DNA of 64,000 nucleotides from Phycisphaerales bacterium (lineage in GTDB: Bacteria > Planctomycetota > Phycisphaerae > UBA1845): the NCBI GenBank assembly GCA_020852275.1, contig JADZBE010000033.1, forward strand, positions 1 to 64,000, in the 5' to 3' direction. The notes beneath the pieces were generated by a model. It saw only the letters and a program-made list of their open reading frames with translations. It was not told where the DNA came from and made no database searches. Below are positions 29,906 through 38,269 of this stretch, piece by piece; within the stretch, counting starts at the first letter, position 1, and each line of letters starts with the position of its first letter. The translations under genes were made by a program, and so were the position numbers.

Positions 29906-30159
29906 GGGGCCGGCCTGCGGGACGTGGGATGGGAGCCTGCCACAGAGACGCTGCCGGAACTGCCGGATGCGCTGTGCACCTGCCCAGGCTGCGGATTCGG
30001 GCGATTTTGACCGCACAAGGTGGACCCGTTGGGTGCCGCTGCGCGGACATGTTGAAAAATGGGGGTCGGACAGGGGGCGGCGCGCCGCTCGGGGGAGCAA
30101 CGGAGCGTCGCAGGGGTTCAGTGCGAGACGGGACGTCTCGGATGAAAGGAGCCAGGAAG

Positions 30160-32376
30160 ATGGCAATGCGAACAATCCGTTGGGCCGTTCTTGCGGGGCT
30201 GATCGCCGCGGCCATGCCGCTCGCCACCGCCCGCGCGCAGTACGAATCGAGCAACATCTCGCTCTACAAGCAGTTCACGCTGGCGGACTTCGGAAATGCC
30301 GGCAACGGCAACAGTTGCTGGGGATACGTCTCCGGCTCCGGGCGCGAGTATGCGATCATGGGCGTGTCCAACAAGGTGGCGTTTGTGGACATCACCGATC
30401 CGGTTAACTCACAGATCGTCGCCACGGTCGCGCACACCAACAGTCTGTGGGCCGACATGAAGGTGTATGGCGACTACTGCTACGTGGTGAATGAGGCGGG
30501 CGGCGGCATCCAGGTGATTGACATCTCCAACATCGACAACGGCGTGGCCAATCTGGTGCGCAGTGTTTCCTCGCCCTCGACCAGCCACACAGTGGGCGTG
30601 AACACGGACAGCGGCTTCCTGTACCCGACGGGCTCGAGCACGGACAACGGCGGCATGTTGATCTTCAACCTGGCCGATCCGAGCAATCCGGTCAAGGTCA
30701 ATGCATGGAACACCGCCTACGTGCACGAGTGTCACGTGGTGAAGTACACGTCCGGACCGTACGCGGGCAAGGAGATTGCCTTCCTCTTCTGCGGCGGACA
30801 GGGCATCTACATTGTGGACGTCACCAACAAGTCCAACCTCGTCAATCTGACGCACAAGACGTATCCGTGCCTGAACTACTGCCACCAGGGTTGGACGACG
30901 GACGACCGGCGTTATCTCTTCGTGGACGACGAGCTGGACGAGTTGTACGGCTGCCGGAATGAGACGACGACGTACGTGTTCGACATCGCCGACCTTACCA
31001 ACATCCAACTGGTCAACACGTTCAGCAACGGCATCAACGTTCCCGACCACAACCTGTATTTCCTGAACGGGCTGCTGTTTCAGTCGAACTACGGCACAGG
31101 CTTGCGCGTCTGGGACGTCAGCGACATCATGGCGCCGGCGGAGATCGGATACTTTGACACGTATCCGGGCAGCAACCCGCTGGACTTCGTCGGCGACTGG
31201 AGCAATTACCCGTATTTCCCGAGCGGGACGGTCATCGCGGGCGACATCAACCGCGGGCTGTTTGTGCTTGACGTGGATGCCAATCATGGCGGGATCGAGT
31301 TCAACTTCCCCAACGGCATTCCAGATCGCGTGCAGCCCGCCGGCGGTACGACGGTTCGCGTGGAAGTGGTGGGAACCTACGGAGGCGATCCGCAACCGGG
31401 CACGGGGCTGTTGCACTATGACTTGGGCGGCGGATTCGTCAGCACGGCCATGAACCAGATTTCGGACAACGTGTACGACGCGGTGTTCCCGGCGGTTCCT
31501 TGCGGCGACACGGTTCGATTCTACTTCAGCGCCGAAGACACGGAGGGCACGGTTTACAACGATCCGGCCAATGCTCCGGCGGGCAGCCACTCGGCCCTTT
31601 CAACCGGCGGCACGAACCCGGTGTTCGTGGACAACTTCGAGGCGGACATGGGCTGGACGGTGACCAATGAGAGCGTATCCGACGGCGCGTGGGTGCGCGG
31701 CATTCCCGCGGGCGATGGATCCCGCGGCGACCCGACGCAGGACTACGACGGCTCGGGCCGATGCTTCGTGACCGGTCTGGGAAACGGGACGGACTTGGAC
31801 GGCGGACCGACGCGCCTCACCTCGCTCGCCTTCGACTTGTCCAGCGGCGGCTTGGTCGAGTATGCCGCGTGGTTTGCCAACGACGACAACGACGCCGACC
31901 GGCTGACGGTGGAGGTCTCCAACAACGACGGCACGAACTGGACGCCCGTCGAGTCGCTCGGGCAGACGTCCGGCTGGGAGCTGCACCGCTTCGACGTGGC
32001 GGACTACGTCACGCCGTCCGCGCAGATGCGCATGCGTTTTAGCGCCACGGACAATCCGAACAACTCCGTCACCGAGGCCGGCGTGGATGCTTTCAACGCG
32101 TTCACGCTCGTCTGCGAAGGCGGCATCACCTGCGGCGACATCAAAAAGTTGTCGGCTCGCTGCCGCGACAACGGGCAGATCAAGGCGAAGGTCGTGCTGA
32201 TCGATGAGAGCTTCAGCGGGCAGACGGTGACGATCGCCATCGACGGCGTTGAGCACGTTTTGACCATCAGCGGACGCCGCGCGCCGCACAAGGAGTGCTG
32301 CTTCAGCGGCACGCGCACGATCACGCTGGAAGATCCCGCGGGATGTGGGCGATCGAAGACGGTGACCTGTCCGTAG
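30160..32376 (+). CDS. Secreted choice-of-anchor B family protein with Cys-rich tail
   Basis: 738 residues from ATG 30160 (AAAGGAG just upstream). A signal peptide (about 1-25, ending PLATARAQ) is followed by LVIVD-type beta-propeller repeats (KVAFVDITDPVNSQIVATV, GGIQVIDISN, YVFDIADLTN, GLRVWDVSDI), as in choice-of-anchor B proteins. A later beta-sandwich region (about 490-650) follows. The last 80 residues (from Cys at 32131) form a Cys-rich domain, CGDIKKLSARC to TVTCP, nearly the same as the end of the protein at 36705-38063. The protein is probably exported and held at the cell surface; that the tail is a sorting or anchoring unit is inference. Confidence 0.85.
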   Translation: MAMRTIRWAVLAGLIAAAMPLATARAQYESSNISLYKQFTLADFGNAGNGNSCWGYVSGSGREYAIMGVSNKVAFVDITDPVNSQIVATVAHTNSLWADMKVYGDYCYVVNEAGGGIQVIDISNIDNGVANLVRSVSSPSTSHTVGVNTDSGFLYPTGSSTDNGGMLIFNLADPSNPVKVNAWNTAYVHECHVVKYTSGPYAGKEIAFLFCGGQGIYIVDVTNKSNLVNLTHKTYPCLNYCHQGWTTDDRRYLFVDDELDELYGCRNETTTYVFDIADLTNIQLVNTFSNGINVPDHNLYFLNGLLFQSNYGTGLRVWDVSDIMAPAEIGYFDTYPGSNPLDFVGDWSNYPYFPSGTVIAGDINRGLFVLDVDANHGGIEFNFPNGIPDRVQPAGGTTVRVEVVGTYGGDPQPGTGLLHYDLGGGFVSTAMNQISDNVYDAVFPAVPCGDTVRFYFSAEDTEGTVYNDPANAPAGSHSALSTGGTNPVFVDNFEADMGWTVTNESVSDGAWVRGIPAGDGSRGDPTQDYDGSGRCFVTGLGNGTDLDGGPTRLTSLAFDLSSGGLVEYAAWFANDDNDADRLTVEVSNNDGTNWTPVESLGQTSGWELHRFDVADYVTPSAQMRMRFSATDNPNNSVTEAGVDAFNAFTLVCEGGITCGDIKKLSARCRDNGQIKAKVVLIDESFSGQTVTIAIDGVEHVLTISGRRAPHKECCFSGTRTITLEDPAGCGRSKTVTCP

Positions 32377-32864
32377 AGGATCCTTCTATCAGGGTTTGGA
32401 TTGAGGCGGACGCGGGCAGGGTGAACTTCGGTTCGTCCTGCCCGTGCCGTTTCGCCGAGCGGCGTCCGGCAGGCTTGCCGTCTGGAAAGTTCGCCGCCCC
32501 CGAACGGCTCGCCGTGGAAGTCAGACGGAACGGCTTTGCTGCCGGCGGGCGTGCCCCATCCCGCTGAGAGTCACCGCCTGGAAAGCCCGTGCGCCAAGGG
32601 AAAACGGCTTTGAACACAGGCTGCCTGGGCGGGTCGTGCCGCGGACGCGCGCGACCCGAACGGCCTCAGGATCCACCCGACAGGGGCCGTTTGGCACTTC
32701 CAGACTCATACTCCAGGGACGCGACCCTTGTTTTCCCGGGCACAAGACCGAGTGCCCAACACCACGGGCTGGAAACCGAACGCATCGGCCCTCCTTCTGT
32801 CGTAGATGCGTTTCGAGTGAACCTGCCATCGCTGCGGGACATGGACGGATATCGGCCAAAGTTC
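32377..32864. other. Intergenic, nothing recognised
   Basis: About 490 bases between the secreted protein and the BlaI operator region. Short ORFs are present on both strands without recognisable domains. Confidence 0.4.
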
Positions 32865-32893
32865 TTGACGGCCGTCTACGATTGTAGTAATCA
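32865..32893 (+). promoter_or_regulatory. Promoter with BlaI-type operator for the blaI/M56 pair
   Basis: TTGACG (32865-32870) and a weak -10 (TAATCA, 32888-32893, 17-base spacer). Between them CTACGATTGTAG (32876-32887) is an inverted repeat close to the BlaI/MecI operator consensus TACANNTGTA. A repressor bound there would block the promoter, so autoregulation by the next gene is expected. Confidence 0.6.
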
Positions 32894-32929
32894 ACAGACT
32901 TGCGTAGAGCAAGCCGGAGGGAGTTCGCC

Positions 32930-33412
32930 ATGCGTCGGTCGCTGGTACCTGATCTCGGTCCGTTGGAGCACCACCTGCTCCGGATCGTGTGGCGAATGAA
33001 CCCGGTCTCAGCGCGGGATGTGCTTGACGCGCATAACCACAGCGCGGACAAGGTGTTAGCGTACACAACGGTGATGACGCTTCTCACCCGCATGGTGGAG
33101 AAGGGAGCGCTGACGGTGGATCGAAGCCGGCAGCCGTTCCTGTTCACGGCGGCGATCTCGCGCGAGCAGATGCTGGCGCAGCGTGTCCGAGACTTCGTGG
33201 ATCAGTTCTTTGACGGTCAGAGCACCGAGCTTGCCTTGAAGCTCGTCGAGGAGTCGCCGATCTCGGCCGAGTCGCTCCAGCGGCTCGAGGAGATTCTCAA
33301 GCAGCACCGGCGCACTTCGCTACCCGCGTCCGCAAACTCTCCCACTGCCTCAATCGCTTCCCTCCCTTCATCAGAGACTTCAAGTGCCATGGATCAGGAG
33401 GAGCGATCATGA
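32930..33412 (+). CDS. BlaI/MecI-family transcriptional repressor
   Basis: 160 residues: a winged-helix DNA-binding domain (LGPLEHHLLRIVWRMNPVSARDVLD, then YTTVMTLLTRMVEKGALTVDRSRQPFLFTAAISREQM) and a C-terminal dimerisation helix region. Such repressors are cleaved when a partner M56 peptidase is activated. ATG at 32930, with GGAGGGAG upstream; its stop overlaps the next start (ATGA). The C-terminal tail is Ser/Thr/Ala-rich and longer than usual. Confidence 0.92.
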   Translation: MRRSLVPDLGPLEHHLLRIVWRMNPVSARDVLDAHNHSADKVLAYTTVMTLLTRMVEKGALTVDRSRQPFLFTAAISREQMLAQRVRDFVDQFFDGQSTELALKLVEESPISAESLQRLEEILKQHRRTSLPASANSPTASIASLPSSETSSAMDQEERS

Positions 33413-35343
33413 CCGCCGCCGCGTTGTACGACCTCGTTCTGCGTTACGGCGGTCTGACGCTGCTCCACGCCACCGTGCTGGCAGCGCTGACGTGGGGCGT
33501 ATGCCGGTTCGCGCTGAAGCAGGCGCGGCCCGCCTTGTGCGCGGCGCTGTGGACGATCGTGCTGCTGAAGTTCGTCATCCCGCCGGTGCTGCCGGGAGAG
33601 ATGGCGCTGAGCGGCTGGCTGGCGAAGGCGCCGTCGGCCGCGGAACTGACCGCCGGCATGGACTTCCCGGACGAGTCCGACCCTGCGGGCAGCGCTGAAG
33701 CGGACGGCGCGGCGCCTTCGTTGAAGCCCGCCGCGCGAGGGGCGTTCGCAGGCGCGAGTTCCAGCGGCGTTTCGTGGAGCGGCGCGATCGGACTTCTGTA
33801 TCTCATCGGACTGGCAGCGGTGACTTTGCGGTGGTTCAGGCATCGCCTGGCGCTCGCCCGTCTGATTCGCGCGTGGCCGGCCGCGGACGATCGGATGCTG
33901 GAGGAAGTCGCGGCGCTGGCGCATCGCGTCGGCTTGATGTCCGTGCCGCGGGTGCGCATGACGCGGGAGGCGATCAGCCCGTTCATCAGCGGGTTCACTT
34001 CCCCCACGCTCATCCTGCCCGTGGATGTGCTCGCGTCGGTTTCAGCGACGGAGCGCGACTCGCTGATTCTGCACGAACTGGCGCATTTGCGCCGCGGCGA
34101 TCTGCTGATTCGCGGCATGGAGAATTTCGTCCGGCTGGTCTTCTACTTCTGGCCGCCGGTGGGATGGGTGTGCCGCCAGATCGAGCGTTTTTCTGAAATG
34201 GCCTGCGACCAGTGGGCGGTGTTGGCCGCGCGTGTGTCGCCGGATGTTTACGCGAATTCACTGCTGAAAGTGGTTCGATGCTGCACGGACAGGCCTGTGC
34301 CTGCCGGTGCGACCCTGGCATTCGCCCGTGGCGGGCGGTTATTGGAGGAACGATTTCACATGATTCTCGAAAAGACCTGCAGGACGCCGCGGTACTCGTG
34401 GCTTGGGACGGCGGCGGTGATCGCCTGGGCCGCATTCGCGCTGACGGGAGGCGCCGCGGCGCAGGACGCTCCGGAAAAACAGCCGCCCGCGCCGCCGCAG
34501 AATTCGCCCCCGGCGCGGCCCAACGTGGACATGGATCAGCCCGTGCTGCCCGAGCGCGCCAAGGCGCTCATGGAGCAGTACGGCGCGGAGGGCATCGACG
34601 CCAACAGCGACGGCATGCTGACGCGCCGCGAGGTGTTCGAGTTCTACCAGAAGAAGGGTCTGCCGCTTCCGGGTCGTCCGGGCGGGCCGGGCAGCGAGTC
34701 GGACCGACCCGCGCCCGGCAGGTTCGGCCCGGGGCGTCCGGGGCCCGGCGGACCGGTGGACATGCTGGAACTGTTCGAGCGATTCCTGCGGATTGAGTCG
34801 GGCAAGATCTCGCGCGAGCGGATTCTCCTCGCCTCGCCGCGCGCGGACGCGGACCATGACGGCAAGCTCAGCGACGAGGAGTTCGCCAAGGCGCTCGACT
34901 TTGCGCACGAGATGGCGGTGAAGCGCCTGCTGGAAGCGCAGCCGGCCACCGACACGGACCGCGACGGGAAGCTCTCTGACGAGGAACTGGCGGCGTTCAA
35001 GACTTCGACGTTGGAGCGCGTGGGGCAACGGATCCTCACGTCTAACAAGGACGCGGACAAGGACGGAGATGGCAAGCTCTCGGAAGAGGAGTTCCTCTCG
35101 TTCCGCGAGGCGCAGGCGGTGAAGCTGCGCGAGGAGATGCTCCAGCGCCACCCGGAAACCGACACGGACAAGGACGGCAAGCTGAGTGAAGAGGAGTTCC
35201 GTGCCGCGGAGCAGAGGATGCGCGCGGCGGCCGGTCGAGGTCGTCCCGGCGGCGCGCCCGGCGCGGGTCCGCAGCGTCCCCTGCCCGGCGAGTTGAAGAA
35301 GGACGCGCCGGAAACGAGTGAGCCGCCGACGCCGAAGCCATGA
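33409..35343 (+). CDS. BlaR1-like M56 peptidase fused to EF-hand repeats
   Basis: 644 residues. N-terminal transmembrane segments (about 1-60 and 125-145), then the zinc peptidase core with LILHELAHLRRGD (HExxH) and a further span. A final transmembrane segment (about 325-345, WLGTAAVIAWAAFALTGG) is followed by an external Pro-rich region and about five EF-hand-like loops, for example DANSDGMLTRREV, DADHDGKLSDEEF, DTDRDGKLSDEEL and DTDKDGKLSEEEF. In BlaR1 the C-terminal part is a penicillin sensor; here it is a probable calcium-binding sensor. It is the likely activator that inactivates the adjacent repressor. Confidence 0.88.
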   Translation: MTAAALYDLVLRYGGLTLLHATVLAALTWGVCRFALKQARPALCAALWTIVLLKFVIPPVLPGEMALSGWLAKAPSAAELTAGMDFPDESDPAGSAEADGAAPSLKPAARGAFAGASSSGVSWSGAIGLLYLIGLAAVTLRWFRHRLALARLIRAWPAADDRMLEEVAALAHRVGLMSVPRVRMTREAISPFISGFTSPTLILPVDVLASVSATERDSLILHELAHLRRGDLLIRGMENFVRLVFYFWPPVGWVCRQIERFSEMACDQWAVLAARVSPDVYANSLLKVVRCCTDRPVPAGATLAFARGGRLLEERFHMILEKTCRTPRYSWLGTAAVIAWAAFALTGGAAAQDAPEKQPPAPPQNSPPARPNVDMDQPVLPERAKALMEQYGAEGIDANSDGMLTRREVFEFYQKKGLPLPGRPGGPGSESDRPAPGRFGPGRPGPGGPVDMLELFERFLRIESGKISRERILLASPRADADHDGKLSDEEFAKALDFAHEMAVKRLLEAQPATDTDRDGKLSDEELAAFKTSTLERVGQRILTSNKDADKDGDGKLSEEEFLSFREAQAVKLREEMLQRHPETDTDKDGKLSEEEFRAAEQRMRAAAGRGRPGGAPGAGPQRPLPGELKKDAPETSEPPTPKP

Positions 35344-35420
35344 CGCGCCGTTGGCGCCGAAGCCGTAGCGAGCCGTCGGTGCAGAAGCGGTAGCGAGTCG
35401 TTGGCCGGGAAACCTCAGCG
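35318..35420. repeat. Degenerate direct repeats at the end of the M56 gene
   Basis: Units of about 33 bases with a common GCCGAAGCCGTAGCGAGCCG core, seen about four times from inside the 3' end of the peptidase gene into the spacer. The spacer to 35732 also has a 21-mer copy (CCGCTTCCTTACGGTCGCGGCTC, 35512-35534). Confidence 0.6.
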
Positions 35421-35660
35421 AGCCGTGTCGCAAGCTGTACTCACTCTGGGGCACCGGCTTTCCAGCCGGCGGCTTCTTGGCCAGTGACGCGACGCCGCGT
35501 GCATGGAGGCACCGCTTCCTTACGGTCGCGGCTCAGATTGGAGAGCCGCTTTCCCACGGGCATCGCTCGGGAAATATCCTTTTCCCCAAGCGCGGGGCTT
35601 GATGGGTGTTAGAAACGTCTAACCGCCTCAACCGATGCTGCCCGGCATTCATGAAGCAAA

Positions 35661-35681
35661 CGGCGTGCATTTTGCACGCCG
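35661..35681. promoter_or_regulatory. Perfect 9-bp stem inverted repeat upstream of the DUF5666-like gene
   Basis: CGGCGTGCA-TTT-TGCACGCCG, about 50 bases before the start codon. It could be an operator or an RNA hairpin. Confidence 0.4.
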
Positions 35682-35732
35682 GAGTCGAGGATTCGAAAAG
35701 CGTGGTCAACAAAACAGAAGGAGGTTGAGCAG

Positions 35733-36488
35733 ATGAAGAGGACGATCCGAGGATTGGCCGCCGTCGCGCTGGCGGCGTCGATATGGACCGCGTCGGACGC
35801 GCAGGCACAGGTGCGTTTCCGGGGCGTGATCACGGCCGTGGGCGATCAGGGGGTTGCCCTGCACACGGACCGGGGCGACGTTCGCGTGTGGGTGACGGAG
35901 CATACGCGGATCATGCGCGACGGGATTCTGGTTCGGTTGCCCGCGTTACAGCCGGGGGACCGGGCCGCGGTCTCCGCGGAGGAAACCGACCGTGGACTGG
36001 TCGCGCTGGCGATCAACGCGCGCAGCGAGAATCCGGATGTGTTCGGAGTTCGCGGCGCGGTGGCGGAAGTGGGGGAGGCGGTCGTCGTGCTGCGGACGCG
36101 GCGCGGACCACTGGAGATTCACGTCACCGACCGCACGGAGATCTTCCGCAACGGCGAGCGCGTGCGGCTTGCGGCGCTGCAGGTCGGCGACCACGCGCGA
36201 GCGCTGGTTGAGCGGACGGATCGTGGGCTGCTCGGGATTTCGATCCAGGCGTTCGGCGAGGGCGTCTTCGTCATGGAAGGCGTCGTGGCCGGCGTGGGGG
36301 ATGGCGTCCTGCTCCTGCACACGCGGAGGGGAGACGCGGAGATTCACGTGACGGCGGAGACGGAGATTTACCGCAACGGCGAGCGCGTGCGTTTGCCCGC
36401 GCTGCAACGCGGAGATCTGGCACGGGCGATGGTTCAGCGCACCGATCGAGGGCTGCTGGGCATCCGCGTCGACGCCCACGGGGGGTAA
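35733..36488 (+). CDS. Exported protein of three tandem DUF5666-like repeats
   Basis: 251 residues with a signal peptide (cleavage likely after SDAQA, about 25). The mature part has three homologous repeats of about 70 residues: RGVITAVGDQGVALHT, RGAVAEVGEAVVVLRT and EGVVAGVGDGVLLLHT, each followed by a VHVTxxTEIxRNGERVRL-like stretch and a DRGLLGI-like end. The pattern resembles DUF5666 OB-fold-like domains. AGGAGG eight bases before the ATG is a strong ribosome binding site. Function unknown. Confidence 0.72.
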   Translation: MKRTIRGLAAVALAASIWTASDAQAQVRFRGVITAVGDQGVALHTDRGDVRVWVTEHTRIMRDGILVRLPALQPGDRAAVSAEETDRGLVALAINARSENPDVFGVRGAVAEVGEAVVVLRTRRGPLEIHVTDRTEIFRNGERVRLAALQVGDHARALVERTDRGLLGISIQAFGEGVFVMEGVVAGVGDGVLLLHTRRGDAEIHVTAETEIYRNGERVRLPALQRGDLARAMVQRTDRGLLGIRVDAHGG

Positions 36489-36517
36489 CGGGGCGCGGAT
36501 TGCCGCTTGGGCGAGAA

Positions 36518-36560
36518 TGGACGGGGCTGGATTCCCGCCGGCGCGGGAATGACGGGTTCT
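36518..36560. repeat. Partial copy of the palindromic element
   Basis: GGATTCCCGCCGGCGCGGGAATGACGGG, corresponding to one hairpin of copies A-D on the minus strand. Confidence 0.65.
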
Positions 36561-36596
36561 GCCACGGGTTTGGATCGAGCGTCTGCAAATGCGACC

Positions 36597-36622
36597 GGCC
36601 CGCGCCTTGCTCGGCGCGGGCC
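36597..36622. terminator. Perfect 10-bp GC hairpin between convergent genes
   Basis: GGCCCGCGCC-TTGCTC-GGCGCGGGCC, lying between the DUF5666-like gene and the minus-strand protease gene. There is no T-tract, so it may stop transcription only weakly or mark messenger ends. Confidence 0.55.
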
Positions 36623-36704
36623 GGCCTGTTTCCGCATCAGGGATTCGCGAACACGGCGCGCGGGGTTGCCGGCGCTCGCAGTGCTTGCCTCCGTCATCCG
36701 CCCA

Positions 36705-38063
36705 CTACGGACAGCTCACCGGAACCGACGCGCAGTTGGCCGGGTTCTTGAGCGATACGTTGTGGTTGCCGGCGTGGCAGCAATGATTGAACGGCGCCCG
36801 ATCCCCATTGATGGTGAGGACGAGGTCCATCGTGCCGTCAATGCTCACCGTGACGGTTTCGCCGTGGTGCGAGGAGTCGGTCAGGATGACCTTGCCCTTG
36901 ATCGTGCCGTTGGTGCGGCAGCTTGCCCTCAGGCGCTTGACATCCGCGCACGGCACGCCGCCGCCGCCGCCCGGGCACACAGCATCGCGAGCGGCCTTGA
37001 AGTCGGCGTTCGTGTGCTTGGTGCCGTAGTTCGGGCAGCCGGTGCTGCAATGCGTGACGATTCCCACAAGCTTGCCGCCGACGATCAGACCCGAGCCGCT
37101 GTTTCCGCCGCGGACGTCCGCGTTGTACTCATAGTGGGTCCCGGATCGCACGGTGATGGAGCCGGTGGAGAGCTGCTGCGTCTGGCTTCGCGTGCAGGTG
37201 GTGTCCACGCCGAAGCCGTAAATCTCCGCCGCCTGCCCCACGTTGGCGTCCGCCGCCGCCAACTGAATCATGGCGCCGTAGCGATCGAACGGCTTCTGAC
37301 CCAGGCCGTTCGCGCTGGTGGTCGTCACCCACCAGTCGGCGCCCACGCCGCCGTTGCGGGACTGCCCGGCGCCGGAGATGGGGAACTGATCTGCGGCGGG
37401 CGGGTTGTTGGTGGAGCAATTGGCGTTGGAGTTCGGCACGCGGAACTGGATGACGCCGCTCGAGCGGCAGTGTCCGGCGGAGACGACGCAACTGTCGGTG
37501 TTCCAGATGGAGCCCGTGCAGCCGACGTTCATGATGCGCCCGGACCAGTCCTGGCTGGAAGGCGCACGGTCGTCAGCGCCGCAAATGCCGCACTGACCGC
37601 TGCCGCCGGTGCCGGCATCGCTCGGCGCGAGCGCCGCTTCGACGTAGTCGAGGACGATGCGGTTGCCCGTGGTCTGCGGCGCGGCGTAGAGATCGAGAAT
37701 CAGCGTGTTTCCGTTGAAGTAGGCGGTGCTGTTGAACCACTCGTTGAGCTGGTAGCCGTCCAGCGCCTGGTCGTCCTGATCATACGCCGAGGTCACGCGG
37801 ATGAAGCTGCCGTCCGGCAGGCTGGACATGCCGAAGTGCAGGCGCATGGAGACGCGGTCCGCCAGCGTGATCGTCTCGGACCACACGATCACGTGCCCGT
37901 CGCTTAAGTTGTCCTGCGTCCCGGAATCCAAGAAGTACGGGACATCGTCGTGCGGCAGCGGCGCCGGCAACGTGTTGAAATCCCCGTCCTGGGCAACAAC
38001 CACCCCCGCGCCCCATGCCAGTGCCAGGCATGTCAGCGCGCCGACATAGACCTTCATCCTCAT
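36705..38063 (-). CDS. Secreted trypsin-like serine protease with Cys-rich tail
   Basis: 452 residues from ATG 38063 (GAGGAGAGG upstream). A signal peptide (about 1-25) precedes a Cys-containing region and a chymotrypsin-fold protease: VVSAGHC (catalytic His), and DVRGGNSGSGLIVGGKLVGIV (catalytic Ser and oxyanion hole). The catalytic Asp is probably in FDRYGAMIQL; this is less certain. The C-terminal 80 residues (from 36950) repeat the Cys-rich domain of the protein at 30160-32376. It is an extracellular or surface protease; the substrate is unknown. Confidence 0.85.
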   Translation of the reverse strand: MRMKVYVGALTCLALAWGAGVVVAQDGDFNTLPAPLPHDDVPYFLDSGTQDNLSDGHVIVWSETITLADRVSMRLHFGMSSLPDGSFIRVTSAYDQDDQALDGYQLNEWFNSTAYFNGNTLILDLYAAPQTTGNRIVLDYVEAALAPSDAGTGGSGQCGICGADDRAPSSQDWSGRIMNVGCTGSIWNTDSCVVSAGHCRSSGVIQFRVPNSNANCSTNNPPAADQFPISGAGQSRNGGVGADWWVTTTSANGLGQKPFDRYGAMIQLAAADANVGQAAEIYGFGVDTTCTRSQTQQLSTGSITVRSGTHYEYNADVRGGNSGSGLIVGGKLVGIVTHCSTGCPNYGTKHTNADFKAARDAVCPGGGGGVPCADVKRLRASCRTNGTIKGKVILTDSSHHGETVTVSIDGTMDLVLTINGDRAPFNHCCHAGNHNVSLKNPANCASVPVSCP

Positions 38064-38269
38064 CTTGCACCTCTCCTCAAAAAAAAGGAACAAAGAAACC
38101 GGGAGGGGAAACAAGACGCCGCCCCCCAGCGGCGTCACACCGGCCCAAACGACCCGAGTGAATGATACACGAATCAACCGGTCGGGGTCAATGCCTTGCC
38201 CATGCCCTCAGCGATCCACTCACGGCAACCGCGCCCAACCTCCGGCAGTCCGTGCTGAAGGTCGGCGCT
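38064..38269. other. Intergenic, nothing recognised
   Basis: Spacer between the protease start and repeat copy D. The 5' leader of the protease gene includes a long A/T-rich patch near 38082-38100. Confidence 0.3.

Follow-up and report, generated by a model that had tools for sequence, protein, structure and literature searches.

Two otherwise unrelated genes in a 64,000-nucleotide stretch of DNA from a Phycisphaerales bacterium (assembly GCA_020852275.1, contig JADZBE010000033.1, positions 1 to 64,000; hereafter the window) encode proteins that end in the same cysteine-rich domain of about 80 residues, which we refer to as the tail. Judged by its sequence matches, the tail is restricted to a small group of uncultured planctomycetes, in which it occurs on about 65–75 unrelated secreted hosts per genome. 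We propose that it is a lineage-restricted C-terminal sorting domain, a common handle for delivery to, or retention at, the cell surface, and assign this reading a probability of about 60%. It is based on the homology of the tails, their copy number and C-terminal position, the diversity and the N-termini of their hosts, the cysteine pattern, and the alternative tails found on homologous proteins. Shared C-terminal domains that sit on dozens of exported hosts and are exchangeable with known tails are a comparative-genomics criterion for sorting signals (PMC3237569, PMC11980579), and we read the tail as such a signal because it is C-terminal, found on dozens of unrelated exported hosts and exchangeable with known sorting tails.

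The two tails in the window lie at positions 32131–32373 on the plus strand (copy 1; BLASTP, hidden Markov model (HMM) and AlphaFold2 model) and 36708–36950 on the minus strand (copy 2; BLASTP and HMM), a strand that the first-pass annotation had not specified; translation of the plus strand there yields an unrelated sequence. Both comprise 81 residues, the last of which directly precedes the stop codon. They are identical at 42 of 82 aligned positions and similar at 57 (BLASTP, 86 bits, E = 2e-29), and each contains the motifs C(G/A)D(I/V)K(K/R)L, NGxIKxKVxLxD, TVTxxIDG, CC and C-X6/7-C-P, all of which the first-pass annotation, made from the letters of the window, had quoted. Its further statement that the host bodies are unrelated likewise held. 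Host 1 is a choice-of-anchor B family protein within the open reading frame (ORF) 29929–32376 of the plus strand. Its start is likely at 30142 (MKGARKMAMRTIRW...), where the N-terminus resembles a signal peptide (MKGARKMAMRTIRWAVLAGLIAAAMPLATARA, 30142–30237), so that the gene spans 30142–32376 with the stop codon at 32374–32376. The choice_anch_B domain at 30235–31269 matches TIGR04312 far above its cut-off (E = 3.3e-91, 306 bits versus 100); a structural model of the full-length protein was poor, with a predicted local distance difference test (pLDDT) score of 44.8, and was not used. Host 2, on the minus strand (36705–38063; ORF 36705–38177, ATG at 38063, stop codon at 36705–36707), is likely a trypsin-like serine protease: the trypsin-like motifs GHC and GGNSGSG can be read directly in it, its best Pfam match, Trypsin_2, is sub-threshold (E = 0.055, 14.6 bits versus a cut-off of 27.6), and a search against PDB sequences returned no match. 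It, too, begins with a signal-peptide-like segment (MRMKVYVGALTCLALAWGAGVVVA, 37992–38063), and a GGGGG linker precedes its tail. Both N-termini were scored with a simple, home-made, untrained predictor, and their cleavage sites were placed by eye.

That this pair lies far beyond chance follows from the number of its relatives. An HMM built from the two tails, the check that the first-pass annotation had proposed, found not just these two proteins but 46 places in the same genome (E ≤ 1), and a refined profile of 55 members found 75 (E ≤ 0.01). These counts refer to profile matches rather than to expressed proteins. Three congeners contain 45, 57 and 65 tails (E ≤ 1e-4), and with the two-sequence HMM we found at least 34 in G031, a 76% complete genome from another genus of the same family. 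These five tail-rich genomes (G000–G003 and G031) thus represent two genera. Other relatives have few copies: the two-sequence HMM detected four each in G004 and G008, two in G029 and one in G022, and a single copy is found in G016. The lone copy in G022 sits on a contig of 3,086 bases and could be contamination. Among 392 genomes sampled across the phylum, the own genome included, none of the other 391 contains the tail. In a scan of contig collections, an alignment of the two window sequences gave no matches, whereas one of five sequences did. Among named records, the tail occurs in Bin_14R, BroJett003 and MAG_25, all of them metagenome-assembled genomes labelled Phycisphaerae or Planctomycetota. 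A viral or mobile origin was rejected: 2.9 million viral contigs contained no relatives of the tail, and BFVD yielded nothing informative.

The tails are almost exclusively terminal. Among all loci fetched, 142 of 146 distinct matches end at most nine residues from the stop codon, and 95 end exactly there. This position bears on the main rival explanation, according to which the tail is an immunoglobulin-like (Ig-like) module that binds a surface component, e.g. polysaccharide or the S-layer, and retains secreted enzymes non-covalently, with no secretion machine involved. As a rule, binding modules are also found at internal or N-terminal positions or in tandem; the tail, moreover, is used by dozens of unrelated hosts and replaces known sorting tails. 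We regard this explanation as rather unlikely. In its favor, two G004 proteins (L251 on contig C4 and L252 on C149) each carry an internal copy, among the four exceptions, in addition to a terminal one. This non-terminal use is possibly ancestral.

The hosts are diverse. The bodies of 65 hosts in the own genome fall into 33 families by single-linkage clustering (E < 1e-5). Those named by Pfam include subtilases, reprolysin-type, M14 and M28 peptidases, an exo/endonuclease, a glucose/sorbosone dehydrogenase (GSDH), Vps10/BNR and kelch propellers, and beta-helix proteins. No typical cytoplasmic family was seen among them; matches in cytoplasmic proteins would have spoken against the first-pass annotation, and the hosts are instead exported protein types. 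Consistently, 44 of 49 tail ORFs begin with a signal-peptide-like N-terminus by the home-made score; among 120 control ORFs, 36 do so (p = 3e-13). Tails that are 55–68% identical occur on bodies without detectable similarity, and the closest tails to those of the window hosts belong to an unrelated protein and a reprolysin. In some loci (L036, L237 and L238), paralogous propeller-type proteins form tandem arrays with one tail each, of four members in the own genome, seven in G003 and four in G002. Furthermore, the C-terminal 500 bases of L057 and L063 encode cysteine-rich CPxPGACCxxDxxC repeats upstream of the tail, and these repeats and the tail were exchanged together between a subtilase and a BNR protein (78% DNA identity). 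Such spread of disulfide-rich tails through tandem duplication and module exchange would also suit a cap that aids the folding or stability of secreted proteins, multiplied by gene conversion and tandem duplication and with no role in sorting. We consider this the least likely of the explanations weighed here, as it leaves unexplained both the restriction to one lineage and the presence of IPTL-CTERM in the same slot of homologous hosts.

Four cysteines of the tail are nearly invariant (C1 in 93%, C11 in 96%, C72 in 90% and C80 in 96% of the sequences); their presumed disulfide pairs are C1–C72 and C11–C80. The vicinal pair C56–C57 is found in about 38% of tails, and C65 and C75 in about 20%, always together (21 of 21) and never alongside the vicinal pair; this perfect co-occurrence suggests a third disulfide, C65–C75, in that subfamily. 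In a tree, the tails separate mainly into one group of 28 and another of 42 rows (support 100/98). Since the G031 tails fall within the larger group, part of this diversity predates the two genera. For 12 sequences, AlphaFold2 predicts an Ig-like sandwich of seven beta-strands with a mean pLDDT of 93.3. Structural comparison places it among generic Ig/FN3-like domains, none of which is a close relative (best Foldseek E = 0.013, best VIA-align Z = 8.8); ranked highest are accessory domains from glycosidases and lyases, as well as CBM31 and CBM56. A generic fold of this kind, with such neighbors, also fits the surface-binding module. In Pfam and NCBIfam, any one family is matched by at most three of 55 tails, and weakly so (best E = 0.0003, BiPBP_C), with no consistent match to curated Ig-like or CBM models; a search of the tail profile against PDB sequences gave weak, partial matches only, and the literature we searched contained no description of the domain. 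The tail also differs from membrane-anchored signals: its median maximal hydropathy over 19 residues is 0.69, compared with 1.6–2.3 for IPTL-CTERM tails, and exceeds 1.6 in only one of 65 tails. An exosortase, LPXTG, GlyGly or MYXO-type signal was consequently rejected, because a transmembrane segment and a basic end are absent.

The first-pass annotation had compared the tail to the C-terminal signals of type IX or other sorting systems. Its reading as an export or surface-attachment signal is supported by the 65–75 or so tails that exported proteins carry at their very C-terminal end, in the slot of known sorting tails such as IPTL-CTERM; the sequence does not support assigning the tail to type IX. 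The tail could in principle be a highly diverged C-terminal domain (CTD) of a type IX secretion system (T9SS), itself diverged in this lineage. Location, similar length and a seven-strand Ig-like architecture as in the RgpB CTD (PMC4804311) fit this, and the hosts, with gingipain-like proteases and propellers, resemble T9SS cargo. None of the 55 tails, however, matches a Pfam or NCBIfam model of T9SS CTDs at E ≤ 1. SprA, searched as SprA_N, had no match in 13 genomes, but the control genomes were equally silent, so that its absence is not demonstrable from this search; likewise, T9SS CTDs are not among the structural neighbors listed, an absence that does not count against them. To our knowledge, near-invariant cysteines have not been described for T9SS CTDs. 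Altogether, we deem this explanation highly improbable, and we do not file the tail under T9SS, because the CTD models are unmatched and the system was not found in a search whose control was silent.

A further link to sorting comes from the other tails that occupy the same slot. Within this taxonomic family, choice-of-anchor B proteins end in the new tail in the tail genus and in G022, in an IPTxSxWG motif followed by a transmembrane segment and a basic end (IPTL-CTERM) in G006, G014, G017, G024, G029 and G033, and in dockerin-like repeats in several other relatives. The tree of choice_anch_B domains implies at least 11 changes of tail type. Subtilases behave in the same way, with the new tail in G000, G002 and G031 and IPTL-CTERM in G014, G016 and G034. 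As a separate observation, homologous hosts in G012, G013, G014, G015 and G033 (L126, L129, L144, L132 and L133) show a recurrent dockerin-like C-terminal region, ...DVxxxVxAFxGxxYPFxxPxxCP; in relatives, it closes many choice-of-anchor B proteins as well as some subtilases. At the level of genomes, the dedicated exosortase XrtH (TIGR04177) has no match in the five tail-rich genomes and is present in 17 of the 19 others; IPTL-CTERM (TIGR04174) is absent from the same five, with 1 to 68 matches in 16 of the 19 others. PEP-CTERM counts are low in the tail-rich genomes (6–10, versus up to 62 elsewhere), where two full-length exosortases persist. In G023, we found four XrtH-like matches and detected no protein with IPTL-CTERM, perhaps because the cognate tail has diverged.

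In the sorting-domain reading, tail proteins bearing a signal peptide would be exported by Sec, and the tail would fold in the periplasm into the predicted Ig-like beta-sandwich, presumably stabilized by disulfides. A single envelope machine or receptor could then read the tail and direct the proteins to the cell surface or keep them there. The tail would thereby largely replace, in this genus and a second one, the XrtH/IPTL-CTERM system of related genera. Several points weigh against this reading. The complementarity between tail and XrtH/IPTL-CTERM, counted by genus, is weak (p about 0.03) because no more than two genera are rich in tails. XrtH is missing from G007 and G008 as well, which have zero and four tails, so that loss of XrtH is not sufficient for tail richness. 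The internal copies seen in G004 would be superfluous for a purely terminal signal. All genomes are metagenome-assembled, and several, such as G031, are incomplete. Finally, the search for cognate machinery by neighborhood, following the idea of a dedicated system (PMC3237569), was unsuccessful: no candidate gene recurs beside tail genes, neither in the tail-gene clusters of four genomes nor in the low-copy genomes, a result that also speaks for a surface-binding module. Accordingly, we put forward a more far-reaching version of the sorting-domain reading only tentatively, and hold it to be doubtful: Phycisphaerae-type planctomycetes would possess an undescribed export or anchoring system, with an evolutionary origin separate from type IX secretion, in which one dedicated machine reads a folded, disulfide-bonded Ig-like CTD on about 65–75 substrates and which replaced the exosortase H pathway.

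Under either version, the tail defines an unnamed domain that, per genome, marks about 65–75 exported proteins of a little-studied lineage, and a single reporter would suffice to test their probable destination. The different tails that sister genera carry on homologous hosts amount to a natural experiment on the swapping of surface-sorting systems. If a dedicated machine does read the tail, it would represent a folded-domain sorting signal outside the Bacteroidota-type T9SS, and phylogenetic profiling could reveal the machine.

Between the two tail genes, the plus strand of the window (32900–35343) encodes a repressor-like ORF (32900–33412) followed by a BlaR1/M56-type peptidase (M56, E = 6e-26) with several EF-hand repeats in its C-terminal half (E = 3e-16), an unusual fusion. 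Adjoining the tail protease, a plus-strand gene (35733–36488) encodes a secreted protein of three repeats of about 75 residues, without a confident family assignment and with the repeat consensus xxGVxLHTxRGDxxxxVTxxTExxRxGxRVRLxALQxGD.

Among known systems, the T9SS CTD is the closest working analogue of the tail, in its logic and in its predicted fold. Like the tail, the CTD of RgpB (type A) takes up the last 80 or so residues of its protein, belongs to a set of dozens per genome on diverse hosts with signal peptides, and forms a seven-strand Ig-like sandwich, which for the tail is a predicted one (PMC4804311). The differences lie in the unmatched CTD models, the blank SprA search (with its silent control), the near-invariant cysteines and the planctomycete host. 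IPTL-CTERM/XrtH and PEP-CTERM/exosortase share with the tail the principle that many unrelated exported hosts have only the C-terminus in common, as well as the slot in choice_anch_B proteins and subtilases; the tail, by contrast, is a folded domain without the motif–transmembrane–basic architecture, and XrtH and IPTL-CTERM are absent where it abounds. GlyGly-CTERM/rhombosortase and MYXO-CTERM/myxosortase follow the same many-to-one logic, with dozens of substrates per genome and host homologs that bear other sorting tails, but these are short tripartite signals cut by intramembrane proteases, whereas the tail is a globular domain of 80 residues without a transmembrane segment (PMC3237569, PMC11980579). 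Dockerin-like EF-hand tails take the same C-terminal place in homologous hosts, while the new tail is predicted to be all-beta and has no EF-hand repeats. The tail is therefore best described as a new folded domain that probably serves in sorting or surface retention and is filed under none of these systems.

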